NCBI GenBank assembly: GCA_017302355.1
Contig: JAFLDQ010000036.1
Coordinates: 1 to 26,353 of the forward strand
Direction of reading: 5' to 3'
DNA: 26,353 nucleotides
From: Dechloromonas sp.
GTDB taxonomy: Bacteria; Pseudomonadota; Gammaproteobacteria; Burkholderiales; Rhodocyclaceae
Positions 20,532 through 26,353 of this stretch are shown here, one piece after another (positions within the stretch are counted from its first letter, which is position 1; every line of letters begins with the position of its first letter). The position numbers and the translations under genes were made by a program. The notes under the pieces are model-generated. The model did not search any database. It was not told the origin of the DNA and worked only from the letters and a program-made list of their open reading frames with translations.

Positions 20532-20616
<85 letters not shown>

Positions 20617-20636: not shown

Positions 20637-20664
20637 ATTATAAAGAAAGTGAATTGCATGTCAA
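20637..20664 (-). promoter_or_regulatory. Consensus sigma-70 promoter of tRNA-Leu
   Basis: On the minus strand TTGACA (20664-20659) and TATAAT (20642-20637) are both perfect matches, with a 16-base spacer, about 20 bases before the tRNA 5' end. The -35 box overlaps the rnr start codon (20658-20660) by two bases on the opposite strand. Confidence 0.9.
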
Positions 20665-22868
20665 GGAAAAAGCCATCGGCGATCCGCCGTGCGGACCCCT
20701 TCTTTGAGCGCGAAGCGGCCCGTTATGACCTGCCGCTCCCGTCGCGCGAATACGTCTCGCAGATCCTGGCCGACGAGGGTCGTCCGGTCACCTTCGGCGA
20801 ATTGAGCAGACTGCTCGACATCGCCGCGACCGAACAGGAAATGTTCCAGCGCCGGCTCGGCGCGATGGAGCGCGAAGGCCAGTTGATGCGCAACCGCAAG
20901 GGCGCCTACATCCTGCCCGAGCGCGCCAGCCTGACGCCGGGGAAAATCCAGGGCCACCCGGACGGCTACGGCTTCCTGATCCCCGATGATGGCAGCGCCG
21001 ACATCTTTCTCGACCAGCACCAGATGGCCAAGGTGCTGCACGGTGACCGCGCCCTGGTGCGGCTTACCGGCGTCGACCGCAAGGGACGCCCCGAGGGCGG
21101 CATCGTCGAAGTCACCGAGCGCGCCAATACCCGTGTCGTCGGCCGGGTGCTCGTCGAGCACGGTCTGGTCTTCGTGGTGCCGGAGAACAAGCGCATCGCC
21201 CAGGACATTCTGGTGCCACCGGAGAAGAGGGCGAAGATCAAGCCGCAGTCGGGGCAGGTGGTGATGGTCGACATCATCGAACAGCCGAGCAAGTTCGCCA
21301 AGCCGATCGGGCGCATTTCCGAGGTGCTGGGCAATTATGCCGATCCGGGCATGGAGATCGAGATTGCGCTGCGCAAGCACGACCTGCCGTTCGAGTTTTC
21401 GAAAGCGGCGCTGGCCGAGAACAAGGCGCTGCCGGACAGGATCAGAAAGGCCGATCTGGCGGGGCGCGACGATCTGCGCGGACTGCCGCTGGTCACCATC
21501 GACGGCGAAACGGCGCGCGATTTCGACGATGCCGTTTACTGCGAGAAGAAGGGCCGCGGCTGGCGGCTGGTGGTGGCGATCGCCGACGTCTCGCACTACG
21601 TGCAACCGGGCATGGCGCTCGACGCCGAGGCGATGGAGCGCGGCAACTCGACCTATTTTCCGCGCCGCGTCATCCCGATGCTGCCGGAGAAACTCTCCAA
21701 CGGCATCTGTTCGCTGAACCCGGACGTCGACCGGCTGGCGATGGTCTGCGACATGGAGATCGGCGCTGGCGGCGCGATCGGCAAGTACCGCTTCTACCGG
21801 GCGGTATTCCGCTCGCAGGCGCGGCTGACCTACAACCAGGTCTGGTCGTGGCTATCGCGCGCGACGCAGCCGGAAACGGACCTTCATATCGGGTTGCAGC
21901 CGCAGTTGGACAATCTCTACAAGCTGTTCAAGACGCTGCACACGGCGCGCGGCAAGCGCGGGGCGATCGATTTCGAGACCACCGAAACGCAGATGCTCTT
22001 CAATGAACAGGGCAAGATCGAGAACATCGTGCCGGTCGTGCGCAACGACGCGCACCGGATCATCGAGGAATGCATGCTGGCGGCCAACGTCTGCGCTTCG
22101 GATTTCCTTGCGGGCCACAAACAGACCTGCCTGTATCGCATCCACGAAGGCCCGTCGGCGGAAAAGCTCAAGAACCTGCGGACCTTCCTCGGCGAGTTCG
22201 GGCTGGCGCTGGGGGGCGGCGACGATCCGCGGGCCAGGGATTACGCGGTGCTGCTCGAGCAAGTGAAGCAGCGGCCGGATTTTCAGCTCCTGCAGACGGT
22301 CATGCTGCGCTCGCTCAAGCAGGCGCTATACAGCCCGGACAATGTCGGCCACTTCGGGCTGGCCTACGAGCACTACACGCATTTCACGTCGCCGATCCGC
22401 CGTTACCCCGACCTGCTGGTGCATCGCGCGATCAAGGCCGTGCTCGCCGGCGCGAAGTACGCTCCGGCGGGGAACTGGGACGACATCGGCCTGCACTGCT
22501 CGGCGACCGAGCGGCGCGCCGACGAGGCGACGCGCGATGTCGAGAGCTGGCTCAAGTGCTTCTTCATGAAGGAGCGCATCGGCGAGGAGTTCGACGGCAC
22601 CATCTCGGCGGTGACCGCCTTCGGCATCTTCGTGGCGCTCGACACGATCTACATCGAAGGCCTGGTGCATGTCTCCGAACTCGGCGCCGACTACTTCCAG
22701 TTCGACAACATCAAGCACCAGATGCTCGGCGAACGGACCGGTCAGCGTTTCCGTCTCGGCGATCGCGTGCGCGTCAGGCTGGTGCGCGCCGACCTGGAAA
22801 GCAACAAGATCGACTTCGTTCTGGTCGACGAAAAAACGTTGCGAAAAACGGCCCGAACGGGGCGTTGA
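20658..22868 (+). CDS. rnr: Ribonuclease R
   Basis: A processive 3'-to-5' exoribonuclease of the RNase II/RNB family, active on structured RNA in mRNA, rRNA and tmRNA-tagged RNA decay. The product has 736 residues: an N-terminal winged-helix region (about 25-85), cold-shock domains (about 90-245), the RNB domain with TIDGETARDFDDAVYC, whose Asp282, Asp288, Asp290 and Asp291 match the catalytic metal ligands of the E. coli enzyme, and an S1 domain at about 641-725. It ends 11 residues later, so the long lysine-rich tail of E. coli RNase R (813 residues) is missing. An in-frame GTG lies nine bases upstream of the ATG. There is only a weak AAAG-type ribosome binding site. The usual partner rlmB does not follow; convergent serA does. 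Confidence 0.96.
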   Translation: MSRKKPSAIRRADPFFEREAARYDLPLPSREYVSQILADEGRPVTFGELSRLLDIAATEQEMFQRRLGAMEREGQLMRNRKGAYILPERASLTPGKIQGHPDGYGFLIPDDGSADIFLDQHQMAKVLHGDRALVRLTGVDRKGRPEGGIVEVTERANTRVVGRVLVEHGLVFVVPENKRIAQDILVPPEKRAKIKPQSGQVVMVDIIEQPSKFAKPIGRISEVLGNYADPGMEIEIALRKHDLPFEFSKAALAENKALPDRIRKADLAGRDDLRGLPLVTIDGETARDFDDAVYCEKKGRGWRLVVAIADVSHYVQPGMALDAEAMERGNSTYFPRRVIPMLPEKLSNGICSLNPDVDRLAMVCDMEIGAGGAIGKYRFYRAVFRSQARLTYNQVWSWLSRATQPETDLHIGLQPQLDNLYKLFKTLHTARGKRGAIDFETTETQMLFNEQGKIENIVPVVRNDAHRIIEECMLAANVCASDFLAGHKQTCLYRIHEGPSAEKLKNLRTFLGEFGLALGGGDDPRARDYAVLLEQVKQRPDFQLLQTVMLRSLKQALYSPDNVGHFGLAYEHYTHFTSPIRRYPDLLVHRAIKAVLAGAKYAPAGNWDDIGLHCSATERRADEATRDVESWLKCFFMKERIGEEFDGTISAVTAFGIFVALDTIYIEGLVHVSELGADYFQFDNIKHQMLGERTGQRFRLGDRVRVRLVRADLESNKIDFVLVDEKTLRKTARTGR

Positions 22869-22877
22869 CCGCAGCAG
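22710..22877 (+). repeat. Parent copy of a 168-base direct repeat (3' end of rnr)
   Basis: This segment covers the last 53 codons of rnr with its stop plus nine bases beyond it. It aligns without gaps to 25618-25785 in the same orientation; I count about 18 mismatches by eye. The match ends exactly where the rnr terminator hairpin begins. Confidence 0.88.
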
Positions 22878-22906
22878 GGTGGGCAAGCCGTCGCCGGCTG
22901 CCCACC
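22878..22906 (+). terminator. Terminator hairpin after rnr
   Basis: A stem of seven plus five base pairs (GGTGGGC-AGCCG with CGGCT-GCCCACC), with one bulged A and a TCGC loop, starts ten bases after the rnr stop. It is followed by ATTT only, so termination may be partial. It stands between rnr and the convergent serA and could serve both. Confidence 0.6.
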
Positions 22907-22959
22907 ATTTCCGCCCCCGCTCCTCCCGAAACTCCCCTGCCGCCGTCGTCCGCGCCTTG

Positions 22960-24138
22960 TCAGGCGCCGATGACGCGCACGCGAATCACGTGCGGCGTTG
23001 CCTCGATGGAGGCAACCACGTCGGAACCGGGGGCGCCTTCGACATCGATGAGGTTGAACGCCAATTCGCCGCGGCTCTTGTTCATCATGTCGATGACATT
23101 GACCTTGTGCTCGGCGAGGATGGACAGCACATTGCCGAGTACGCCCGAGACGTTCTCGTTGGAAAAGGTGATGCGCGATGTGCCCGGCGAGCGCTCCATG
23201 TTCACGGCGGGGAAGTTGACCGAATTGGCGATGTTGCCGTTTTCCAGGTAATCCATGATCTGGTTGGCCGCCATCACCGCGCAGTTCTCCTCGGACTCTT
23301 CGGTGCTGGCGCCGATGTGCGGCATGGCGATCACATCCGCCCGCCCGAGCATCGCCGGCTCGGGAAAATCGCACACATAGGCGCCGAGCTTGTCCTGATC
23401 CAGACTGCGCAACACGGCGGCCGGGTCCACAATGGCTTCGCGGGCAAAGTTCAGGAGGATGGCGCCCTTCTTGATCGAGGCCAGCGCATCGTCGTTGATC
23501 ATGTGGCGCGTCGCATCCATCGCCGGCACATGCAGCGAAACGTAGTCCGAGCGCGCCAGCAGGGTCGGCAGGTTCTCCATGCGGGTGACCTCGTTGGACA
23601 GGCGCCAGGCGGCGTCGATCGACAATACCGGATCGAATCCCACCACGTTCATGCCCATGGCCAGCGCCATGTCGGCCACCATCGAGCCGATCGCCCCGAG
23701 GCCGACGATGCCCAGGGTCTTGCCCCTGATCTCGTTGCCGGCGAAACGCGACTTCTCCTTCTCCAGCAACTGCGCCATTTCGCCCGCATCGGTCATGCTG
23801 GTGAGCGACTGAACGTAAGCCAGGCCAGGGAGAATGCCGCGCGTGGCCAGCAGCATGCCGGCCATCACCAGTTCCTTGACGGCATTGGCGTTGGCGCCCG
23901 GCGTATTGAACACGACGATTCCAAGCTTGCTGTACTCGGCAACCGGGACGTTGTTTACCCCGGCGCCGGCGCGGGCCGCCGCCAGCAGTGTTCCCGGGAT
24001 TTCCACGCCCTGCAGCTTCTGGCTGCGCAGCAGGAACGCGTCCGGATGACCGATATCGCTGCCGACTTCGTAATTCTGGCGTGAAAACCGTTCCAGTCCC
24101 TTGACTGAAATCTTGTTGTAGGTACGTACTTTGAACAT
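22960..24138 (-). CDS. serA: D-3-phosphoglycerate dehydrogenase
   Basis: The first enzyme of serine synthesis, oxidising 3-phosphoglycerate with NAD. The protein has 392 residues: a substrate domain split around the Rossmann domain, with GLGAIG at 146-151 as the nucleotide loop. Arg233 (FAREAIVD), Glu260 (DFPEP) and His274 (PHIGASTEESEENC) sit in the positions of the catalytic Arg, Glu and His. The last 70 residues form an ACT domain (SRITFSNENVSGVLGNVLSILAEHKVNV), the site of serine feedback in related enzymes. The short form with one ACT domain fits a serA paired with serC. A GAAGGA element lies 11 bases before the ATG. It follows serC by 35 bases, so one transcript is likely. Confidence 0.95.
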   Translation of the reverse strand: MFKVRTYNKISVKGLERFSRQNYEVGSDIGHPDAFLLRSQKLQGVEIPGTLLAAARAGAGVNNVPVAEYSKLGIVVFNTPGANANAVKELVMAGMLLATRGILPGLAYVQSLTSMTDAGEMAQLLEKEKSRFAGNEIRGKTLGIVGLGAIGSMVADMALAMGMNVVGFDPVLSIDAAWRLSNEVTRMENLPTLLARSDYVSLHVPAMDATRHMINDDALASIKKGAILLNFAREAIVDPAAVLRSLDQDKLGAYVCDFPEPAMLGRADVIAMPHIGASTEESEENCAVMAANQIMDYLENGNIANSVNFPAVNMERSPGTSRITFSNENVSGVLGNVLSILAEHKVNVIDMMNKSRGELAFNLIDVEGAPGSDVVASIEATPHVIRVRVIGA

Positions 24139-24173
24139 GATCTTTGTTTTTCCTTCGGTGGATTTATCCCGAT

Positions 24174-25289
24174 TCAGGCCTTGACTTCGTTATAGGCCCA
24201 GGTCAACCACGGCAGCAGGGCCTGCAAGTCCTCGCTCTGCACGGTGGCGCCACACCAGATGCGAATGCCGGCGGGAGCGTCCTTGTAGGCGCCGATGTCA
24301 TGAGCCGCGCCGTGGGTGTCCAGCAACTTCACCATTTGCTTGACCTGATCCGCGCTGACGTCGACGGTCAGGCAGACGCTGGTGTTGGAGCGGGTGGCCG
24401 GATCCCTGGCCAGGAAGGAAATCCAGTCGTTGGTGGCAACAAAATCGGCGATGACCTTGAGGTTGGCTTCACTGCGTGCGATGGTGGCCGGCACGCCACC
24501 GATGCTCTCCACCCAGGCCAGGGCGTCGAGATAGTCGGCCACGCACAACATCGACGGTGTATTGATGGTTTCGCCCTTGAACAGACCCTCGCTGAGTTTG
24601 CCGCCCGAGGTCATGCGGAAGACCTTGGGCATCGGCCAAGGCGGTGAATAGGTCTCAAGGCGGGCCACTGCGCGCGGACCCAGGATCAGCATGCCGTGAG
24701 CGCCTTCGCCACCCAGCACTTTTTGCCACGAGTAGGTCACCACGTCGAGCTTGTCCCATGGCAGCTCCATGGCAAACACGGCGGAGGTCGCGTCGCAAAT
24801 GGTCAGGCCAGCGCGGTCTGCGGGAATCCAGTCGCCGTTGGGAACCTTGACGCCCGAGGTCGTGCCGTTCCAGGTGAACACCACGTCGTTATTGAAATCC
24901 ACGCGGGAGAAGTCGACGATCTCGCCGTAGCCGGCTTCGAGCTTGTTGACGTTGGGCAGTTTGAGCTGCTTGATGATGTCCGTCGCCCAGCCCGAACCGA
25001 AGGACTCCCAAGTCAGCACATCGACGCCGCGTTGCCCAAGGAGGGACCACATCGCCATTTCCACCGCGCCCGTGTCCGAACCGGGAACGACAGCCACGCG
25101 GTAGCCCTCGGGCAATCCCAGAATGCGCGCGGACTCGGAACAGGCCAGACCCAGGGCCTTCTTGCCCAGCGCCGAGCGATGCGAACGCCCCAGGGTGTCG
25201 AGTTGCAGGGTCGAGACGTTGTAGCCCGGGCGCTTGCTGCATGGGCCGGACGAGAAATTGGGATTCTTGGGTTTGACCGTGGGTTGCAT
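24174..25289 (-). CDS. serC: Phosphoserine aminotransferase ([11 protein letters not shown] type)
   Basis: The second enzyme of serine synthesis, a PLP-dependent class V aminotransferase converting 3-phosphohydroxypyruvate and glutamate to phosphoserine. The length is 370 residues. It starts [18 protein letters not shown], which marks the form found in Alphaproteobacteria and some archaea (TIGR01365 as I recall), not the E. coli form with its NFSAGPA start. Lys190 in [14 protein letters not shown] is the Schiff-base lysine, and [14 protein letters not shown] supplies the PLP-holding Asp. The ATG at 25289 was chosen because the conserved N-terminus follows at once; a start 12 codons upstream is less likely. 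The first gene of the serC-serA pair, it has a leader of about 90 bases with a hairpin. Confidence 0.93.
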
Positions 25290-25318
25290 CGTGATCTCGC
25301 GTGTAGGAACAAAGGAAA

Positions 25319-25347
25319 CGGCCAATTACCCTGCGGGTATCCGGCCG
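25319..25347 (-). promoter_or_regulatory. Hairpin in the serC leader
   Basis: CGGCC pairs with GGCCG around an internal loop, and inside it TACCC pairs with GGGTA around a three-base loop. It lies 30 bases before the serC start, within the presumed leader transcribed from a TACAAT-type -10 box at 25373-25378 (minus strand, no clear -35). It could affect translation or serve as a protein site; no known riboswitch is recognised. Confidence 0.35.
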
Positions 25348-25378
25348 ATGCTGGAGGAAGCTCAAGGGCGATATTGTA

Positions 25379-25617
25379 ACAATCCGCATGCCAAAAGACA
25401 CGCTTCAGCCTTGTCTGATGCGTTGTGAGCCTGAGCGGGGAGGCGTCCTTGAAGCGAAGCACGGGCCTGATGCAAGAAGGTGGAGGGGTAAGGGGCAGCC
25501 GGTCGATCATTCCCGAGACGGTGATCAACATGGGCGAAATGCGACTTTGCACGACCGAGCAAATCTGGCAATTTCCTGGCGCTGGCGCGCCGTCGAGGCT
25601 GCACGGCAGGCGACGAC
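25379..25617. other. Gene-poor stretch between serC leader and rnr copy
   Basis: No credible gene is seen here. Frames running through it are short or continue antisense to, or out of frame with, the rnr remnant. A short frame from ATG 25530 (MGEMRLCTTEQIWQF) faintly resembles the start of some IS integrase-type transposases, but it breaks down within 20 codons. Confidence 0.5.
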
Positions 25618-25785
25618 ATCCAGTACCAGATGCCAGGCGAACGCACCGGTCAGCGCTTCCGTCCTGGCGATCGCGTGCGCGTCAGGCGGGTGCGCGCCGA
25701 CCTCGAAAGCCAAGAGATCGACTTCGTTCCGGTCGACGAAAAACCATCGCGAAAAACGGCCCGACCGGGGCGTTGACCGCAGCAG
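25618..25785 (+). pseudogene. Diverged partial copy of the rnr 3' end
   Basis: A remnant of RNase R comprising the last 53 codons, the stop (25774-25776) and nine bases beyond. The frame is intact and reads IQYQMPGERTGQRFRPGDRVR, then EIDFVPVDEKPSRKTARPGR, against IKHQMLGERTGQRFRLGDRVR and KIDFVLVDEKTLRKTARTGR in the full gene. About 18 of 168 bases differ, and many differences change amino acids, so it either decays as a pseudogene or came from another strain's rnr. It corresponds to the end of the S1 domain and the C-terminus. No start codon or ribosome binding site serves it. It has the same orientation as rnr, and serC-serA lies between the two copies. Confidence 0.85.
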
Positions 25786-26097
25786 CGCCGGTGTGGCCGC
25801 CGATCAGCTCTGGAAATCCAGAATTCATATGGCAAGGGTCTAGTTCAGATCAGGACTGACAGGCAAGAATCGACCCTGAAGAGACGTTCGCCGTCTCGGT
25901 AGCCCTGTGGCAGGTTTCTGGGCGGAGCTGTCGTACGACGAAGAGGTTGAGCGAGAACTGCTCGGTCTTTGCCGACCTTGACTTATTGGAGCTTCTTGCA
26001 AAACTATTTTTGGAAGAACTGCCTAAAATTTGCGCCGGCCCCGATTTTTCTGTACACGAATTTGGGGTTAAATCGTGTCTGAAGAAGGAGTCGTAAA
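25786..26097. other. Gene-poor, partly AT-rich stretch before the transposase
   Basis: No gene is recognised. Bases from about 25980 to 26080 are much richer in A and T than the rest of the window (for example TTGCAAAACTATTTTTGG and CCTAAAATTTGCG), which fits the non-coding end of an insertion sequence. A plus-strand frame open from 25860 to 26096 lacks an ATG or GTG and is not called. A palindrome is listed separately. Confidence 0.5.
26054..26078. repeat. Inverted repeat upstream of the transposase gene
   Basis: ACACGA and TCGTGT form a perfect six-base stem, extended by TTT/AAA after one bulged A, with a GGGGTT loop. It ends six bases before the transposase ribosome binding site. It could be part of an insertion-sequence end or a transposase-binding operator; the matching far end lies outside the window. 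Confidence 0.45.
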
Positions 26098-26353
26098 ATG
26101 CTGAATCAATCGAATGTGGGTGGGGTTGCGCCGGGCTTGCCGGAAGGAGCGCGTAGCGCGACTGGAGGCGAGCCCGGCGCGGCCGCCGAGGTGAAGCGGT
26201 GGTCGGCGGGACGGAAGAAGGGGGTCGTGCTGCGCCTGCTGCGCGGCGAGCCGGTCGATGCCGTCTCGCGCGAGGTGTCGGTGCCGATATACAAGCTCGA
26301 ACGCTGGCGCGACCGGGCGCTTGCCGGCATCGACGCCGGCCTCAAGGAACGCG
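26098..26353 (+). CDS. Transposase OrfA-like protein, cut by the window end
   Basis: The first 85 residues of a protein that runs off the right edge. After a low-complexity start it reads VKRWSAGRKKGVVLRLLRGEPVDAVSREVSVPIYKLERWRDRALAGIDAGLKER, with RWSA.RK..VVLRLLRGE....SRE..V....L..WR..ALAG...GLK.R the repeated theme of a group of small helix-turn-helix IS transposase subunits (IS3-like OrfA as I recall). This domain would bind the element's terminal repeats. AAGGAG lies seven bases before the ATG, a strong ribosome binding site. The AT-rich leader and the palindrome before it fit an insertion sequence. Family assignment is from memory of similar proteins; the second subunit and the right end would lie to the right. 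Confidence 0.65.
   Translation, partial: MLNQSNVGGVAPGLPEGARSATGGEPGAAAEVKRWSAGRKKGVVLRLLRGEPVDAVSREVSVPIYKLERWRDRALAGIDAGLKER

Follow-up and report, generated by a model that had tools for sequence, protein, structure and literature searches.

The window (the whole 26,353-nucleotide stretch of Dechloromonas sp. DNA analysed here) quite probably carries the trace of an insertion at the 3' end of its lineage's own rnr gene: after the split from the nearest relative found, genome G042, a fragment of about 2.7 kb, comprising serA, a serC of the serC_2 type and the start of an IS481-like element, would have entered there, with a duplication of 175 bp of the target. The rnr end is now present twice with the insert between its copies, one relative has the site empty, the two ends are sisters in a tree, and one of them has lost the codon-position bias of a working gene. 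From this end product we infer a single insertion event, brought about through template switching or through a staggered break at which a fragment was captured.

The working gene, rnr (20649-22868, plus strand), encodes an intact ribonuclease R of 739 amino acids with Pfam RNB, OB_RNB and S1 domains, which scores over the cut-off of TIGR02063 (852.7 bits, cut-off 597.85) and below that of PRK11642 (862.9, cut-off 982). An earlier note on this DNA had described the rnr 3' end as recurring ungapped with about 18 mismatches in 168 bases, and named a much lower identity on computed alignment as the finding that would speak against it; aligning 22710-22877 with 25618-25785 gave exactly 18 of 168, without a gap. 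Self-BLAST of the window extends the repeat to 175 bp, from 22703-22877 to 25611-25785, both on the plus strand, with 156/175 bases identical (89.1%, E 8e-58). Beyond these limits identity drops to background on both sides, and the next best repeats in the self-BLAST listing are at most 51 bp long, with E 2e-8 or weaker. The left copy (22703-22877) holds the working rnr 3' end, its stop codon and nine further bases; the right copy (25611-25785), a decayed rnr 3' end, covers only the last 54 rnr codons, in frame to the stop (in the rnr frame, IQYQMPGERTGQRFRPGDRVRVRRVRADLESQEIDFVPVDEKPSRKTARPGR followed by the stop). The longest exact run common to the two copies is 22 bp, the right copy is decayed, and it adjoins the flank expected of it, all of which leaves an almost negligible chance that the arrangement is an assembly chimera joining two strains or places.

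The right copy is closest to the window's own rnr. It is identical to that gene at 156/175 positions and to the rnr of G042 at 147/175, and other relatives reach at most 82% over about 125 bp, or match over shorter stretches. When rnr ends were placed in a tree (31 rows, 28 of them distinct, and 124 columns; the rows being L083-L102 from an rnr search of the genus, nine further rnr loci and the two window ends), the right copy came out as sister to the end of the window's own rnr with support 95/86, which, for a tree of only 124 columns, is barely above threshold, and the pair joins the rnr end of G042 (98/94). The end branches within the pair have lengths of 0 for rnr and 0.23 for the copy. 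The earlier note had taken the second gene end to be foreign and expected its best match in the rnr of another genus; the relatives compared give the opposite answer, with the window's rnr nearest and G042 next.

With G042 as the third sequence, the 19 differences between copy and rnr over the 175 bp fall mostly to the copy: G042 has the rnr base at 14, the base of the copy at four and neither of the two at one, the four being those that fit a change in rnr and not in the copy. At 13 further sites both window copies have a base that is absent in G042, and ten of these 13 lie at 22820 or later, in the variable part of the rnr end. By codon position the differences between copy and window rnr are distributed 7/5/7, against 26/24/113 for the differences between the rnr bodies of the window and G042 over 683 codons (Fisher P 0.009 for the contrast). 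The changed codons of the copy comprise 3 synonymous and 12 nonsynonymous ones; those of the G042 tail, compared with the window's rnr, comprise 7 and 7, and in the first 41 codons of that tail only third positions have changed (0/0/7). Because its changes ignore codon position, the right copy looks like a dead, decayed fragment of the local rnr and not like a foreign working gene end, and a foreign origin of the copy was rejected on the tail tree and the codon-position test together. That a second gene end has diverged does not make it foreign, since local decay yields the same percent identity; codon positions and a tree separate the two.

The serC-serA pair does lie between the copies, as the earlier note had reported, within an insert of about 2.7 kb (22878-25610). 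Its left edge is a G+C-rich (74%) spacer downstream of serA (22878-22959), and homology to the serA region of G042 starts at 22954. The serA-like gene (22960-24138, minus strand) encodes a 2-hydroxyacid (phosphoglycerate) dehydrogenase with the Pfam domains 2-Hacid_dh and 2-Hacid_dh_C; its product is below the curated cut-offs (TIGR01327, 226.2 against 454 bits; PRK11790, 210.8 against 404), and the name serA is taken from the operon and these Pfam domains. The serC gene (24174-25289, minus strand) encodes a phosphoserine transaminase of 371 amino acids, placed in the serC_2 type by TIGR01365 (610.6 bits, cut-off 448.2), and the region upstream of it (25290-25405, minus strand) is common to G042 up to 25382 (BLAST to L113).

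What the earlier note had missed stands between serC and the right copy: the truncated left end of an IS481-like insertion sequence (about 25406-25610, plus strand), comprising the terminal inverted repeat region, which begins near 25410, and the opening codons of the transposase. It was recognised by alignment to an intact element in genome G062 (L127), with a score of 94, where 500 mononucleotide shuffles gave at most 36; the part belonging to the terminal inverted repeat was found by alignment without a control run. We call the element only IS481-like because the transposase of its G062 relative, just over the cut-off of Pfam rve (33.0, cut-off 32.6), is below that of NCBI IS481 (55.1 against 224 bits). 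At E 1e-50 a relative of the transposase was found in 1/76 genomes of the genus, G062 itself. In G042 even the best match to the remnant is poor (E 0.018), and a search for the origin of 25383-25617 in G042, G048, G034 and G035 gave nothing convincing (best E 9.3e-4). The remnant stops within a few bases of where the rnr copy starts; because its alignment to the G062 element can be extended as far as 25617, the position of the join is uncertain by a few bases. At this right join, the one compared, the insertion sequence (GCGATGAC) and rnr (TCGACAAC) are alike for a short run of bases. Two ORFs over the right end of the insert (144 and 151 aa) matched no Pfam family, and 22600-26353 matched no Rfam family up to E 1.

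The serC_2 type is patchily distributed, being found in 2/76 genomes of the genus (E 1e-20) and 42/395 of the family (E 1e-40), as could be expected if the serine genes had come from another genus and had brought the right copy with them as a foreign rnr end. We consider this extremely improbable, since the copy matches the window's rnr above any relative compared and is its sister, its changes ignore codon position, and the window's SerC is itself sister to that of G042 with support 100/98 (tree of 33 rows, SerC only). Among the best 120 matches listed, the nearest SerC with an organism name is from Azonexus sp. Within the genus, serC_2 is paired with serA in only 2/76 genomes, both of which also have an ordinary serC_1; G042 and G035 each have an ordinary serC_1 that scores over its cut-off. 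The serC_2 match of G042 (3027592-3028892) is 1.5 Mb from its rnr (1498557). At fourfold sites serA diverges from G042 by 0.25 and serC by 0.32, somewhat above but close to the values for seven other genes, rnr included (0.17-0.26).

Thus serC-serA was probably already in the common ancestor with G042, located elsewhere in one of the lines or in both, and because the two SerC proteins are sisters, a move of serA-serC within the lineage is more likely than the import from another genus that the earlier note had favoured. The source of the fragment would then probably be another place in the same lineage. The copy number of serC-serA is read from the window alone, and a second copy elsewhere in the genome is possible. 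When the flanks of serC-serA were compared over 20 loci (L125, L126, L129-L146), some loci had flanks in common with each other; among the 60 longest pairs listed, the only one to involve the window was the 175-bp repeat itself.

The state before the insertion appears to be preserved in G042. Its DNA is collinear with the window up to rnr over 14.2 kb at 90%, its rnr is 93% identical over a 578-bp query, and the close rnr loci bear the names of Dechloromonas, Azonexus and Rhodocyclales. In G042, rnr runs straight into a homolog of the sequence beyond the right copy, and serC-serA is absent there; the empty site that the earlier note had proposed to look for was thus found, in this one relative. 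The collinear BLAST match (25611-25875, 78%, 267 bp) extends about 90 bp beyond the copy, and 25786-25875, which aligns collinearly with what comes directly after rnr in G042, is the old flank on the downstream side of rnr. Compared with G042, the flank beyond the copy scores 78 (maximum of 37 in 500 dinucleotide shuffles) and the sequence beyond the working rnr scores 28, a value reached by 257/500 shuffles of the same kind. Over the first 32 bp beyond the repeat the copy side agrees with G042 at 22/32 positions ungapped and the rnr side at 13, and 0/100000 mononucleotide shuffles reach 22. When the nine repeat bases are included (L103), the scores are 90 on the copy side and 52 on the rnr side; other comparisons of the rnr-side query score 26-42 (26-39 for the other loci), which points to a weak continuation of that side into G042.

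Part of the right flank may lie within dispersed repeats: 25817-25877 also matches one other place in G042 at 80%, leaving only 25786-25816 outside that match, and 25871-25987 or parts of it have matches in G001, G060, G054, G041 and G023 and on a Thauera plasmid. Position, orientation and the first 31 bases nevertheless support the view that the G042 flank match is one of orthology. On the Thauera plasmid, the dispersed sequence (25817-25987) lies downstream of a tyrosine recombinase gene, at a distance of about 100 bp; it has no Rfam match. Further to the right, outside the repeat, 26017-26353 is the left end of another insertion sequence of a different kind, which runs off the window; it is 72% identical to an element on a Caballeronia plasmid whose next gene has rve and HTH_21 domains, and we take it to be IS3-like.

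Among the matches listed for the 76 genomes of the genus, no relative without serC-serA was seen to bear both rnr-end copies, a pattern that the earlier note had named as contrary to its reading, and in none of them, G042 included, did the rnr tail have a second match of more than 57 bp; these searches scored at most eight and at most four candidates per genome, and in the first of them G036 and G063 had no match reaching the tail. Nor was serA or serC found near rnr at any of 80 rnr loci (0/80), within the sequence around each, several of the loci ending soon after rnr. The earlier note's proposal that a segment entered at the rnr end by recombination and left a second gene end behind therefore stands in outline, and the foreignness of that end does not.

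The same observations bear on whether the segment came from close kin, that is, whether a donor strain already carrying an rnr end with serA-serC recombined in, leaving the right copy as the resident's old end. Such an event would equally place the copy beside the old flank, and the 13 sites common to both ends and absent in G042 mean that a donor of the same lineage would be indistinguishable from the resident. It would, however, require that the donor had earlier undergone the same insertion; all the change in the tree lies on the copy branch, fitting drift after an exact duplication; and no such donor was found among the 76 genus genomes (matches listed) or the 80 rnr loci. We regard import from close kin as unlikely, and prefer insertion at the lineage's own rnr end.

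The usual gene order in the genus is rnr followed by rlmB. The two are on one contig in 69/76 genomes, and the gap between the two matches (rnr end to rlmB start, read by hand) is 83-2,043 bp in 68 of them; in G042 it is 6,696 bp. Of the remaining seven genomes, six have the two genes on different contigs, and in one (G063, also without a real rnr match) rlmB was not found. The G042 interval (L103 14126-19901, L104 1-930) contains autotransporter and phage-integrase genes; it has been rebuilt, and hence is not the usual arrangement of the genus. A carbonic anhydrase gene lies between rnr and rlmB in G048, and G042 has, just before rlmB, a stretch resembling that gene, an apparent remnant on our reading of the sequence.

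That phage-type integrase gene, in the one interval of 6,696 bp, lends something to the idea that the insert is a site-specific integrating element which had its attachment site in the rnr 3' end and whose integrase has since been lost, and a gene end that is restored on one side and displaced on the other is what such elements leave. Yet no integrase, and no complete insertion sequence, was found in the insert among the ORFs scanned, where the genes recognised were serA, serC and the insertion-sequence remnant; the right end of the insert is a broken insertion sequence joined inside rnr and not an attachment core; and the rnr-tail searches of the 76 genomes, G042 included, listed no second match above 57 bp. 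We think an integrating element very unlikely. A wider version, in which cargo has landed repeatedly at the rnr 3' end in this clade (serA-serC and the insertion-sequence remnant in the window, the autotransporter and integrase genes in G042), and serC_2-serA is a movable metabolic block for an element that uses the gene end and leaves a 175-bp scar, is quite improbable.

Integration based on a tRNA gene was rejected, the only tRNA found (Leu, 20532-20616) preceding rnr. A mobile repeat at the rnr end was also considered and was too sparse to call: short stretches similar to the last 41 repeat bases (22837-22877) occur elsewhere in the genus, several of them at other gene ends or inside a putative acyl-CoA-dehydrogenase-like gene (named from its reading frame), and the pattern AAAAACGGNCN{2,12}CGTTGACCGCA occurs at 15 places in 13/76 genomes, the rnr end of G042 included, with one match for the reversed control.

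Returning to the preferred reading, we suggest that the lineage's own rnr received, at its 3' end, a fragment consisting of serA-serC_2, its upstream region and the beginning of the IS481-like element, with a 175-bp duplication of the target. A replication fork could have switched to serA-serC-IS and then returned to the target 175 bases back from where it had left; alternatively, the fragment could have been captured at a break with long staggered ends, which was filled in by 175 bases and joined without long homology. The insertion would have persisted because the left copy keeps rnr whole and the gene unharmed, while the right copy, beside the old downstream flank, would have drifted as a dead fragment. 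The private changes of the copy, 14 in 175 bp (8%), are comparable in order of magnitude to half the fourfold divergence from G042 (about 9-13%), so that, as a rough estimate, the event post-dates the G042 split and is old rather than recent; the earlier note's view that the duplication was not very recent holds. The arrangement may be read as a fossil of metabolic genes changing place, in which the target gene survives through its copied end and the dead copy places the event later than the parting from the nearest relative found. As a rearrangement it is clear but ordinary, and for the field it is a modest example.

Composite transposons can carry metabolic genes, and the window resembles them in having cargo genes beside an insertion sequence; it differs in having a single truncated insertion-sequence end next to the cargo, where two complete flanking insertion sequences of the same kind would be expected, and a target duplication of 175 bp instead of a short one. 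Genomic islands integrate at the 3' ends of genes, including tRNA genes, guaA, prfC and others. As with these, the host gene end in the window has been rebuilt, with rnr intact, and a displaced second end lies at the far side, decayed, at 25611-25785. Unlike them, the insert has no integrase or recombinase gene among the ORFs scanned and no short identical core; the repeat is 175 bp long with one copy decayed, and the cargo is two metabolic genes and a broken insertion sequence. Illegitimate insertion with duplication is known from template-switch or break-capture events and from homology-facilitated illegitimate recombination. The event in the window differs from these in being known from its end product alone, and is like them in its joins without long homology, in an insertion sequence cut at an arbitrary point and in its duplicated target.
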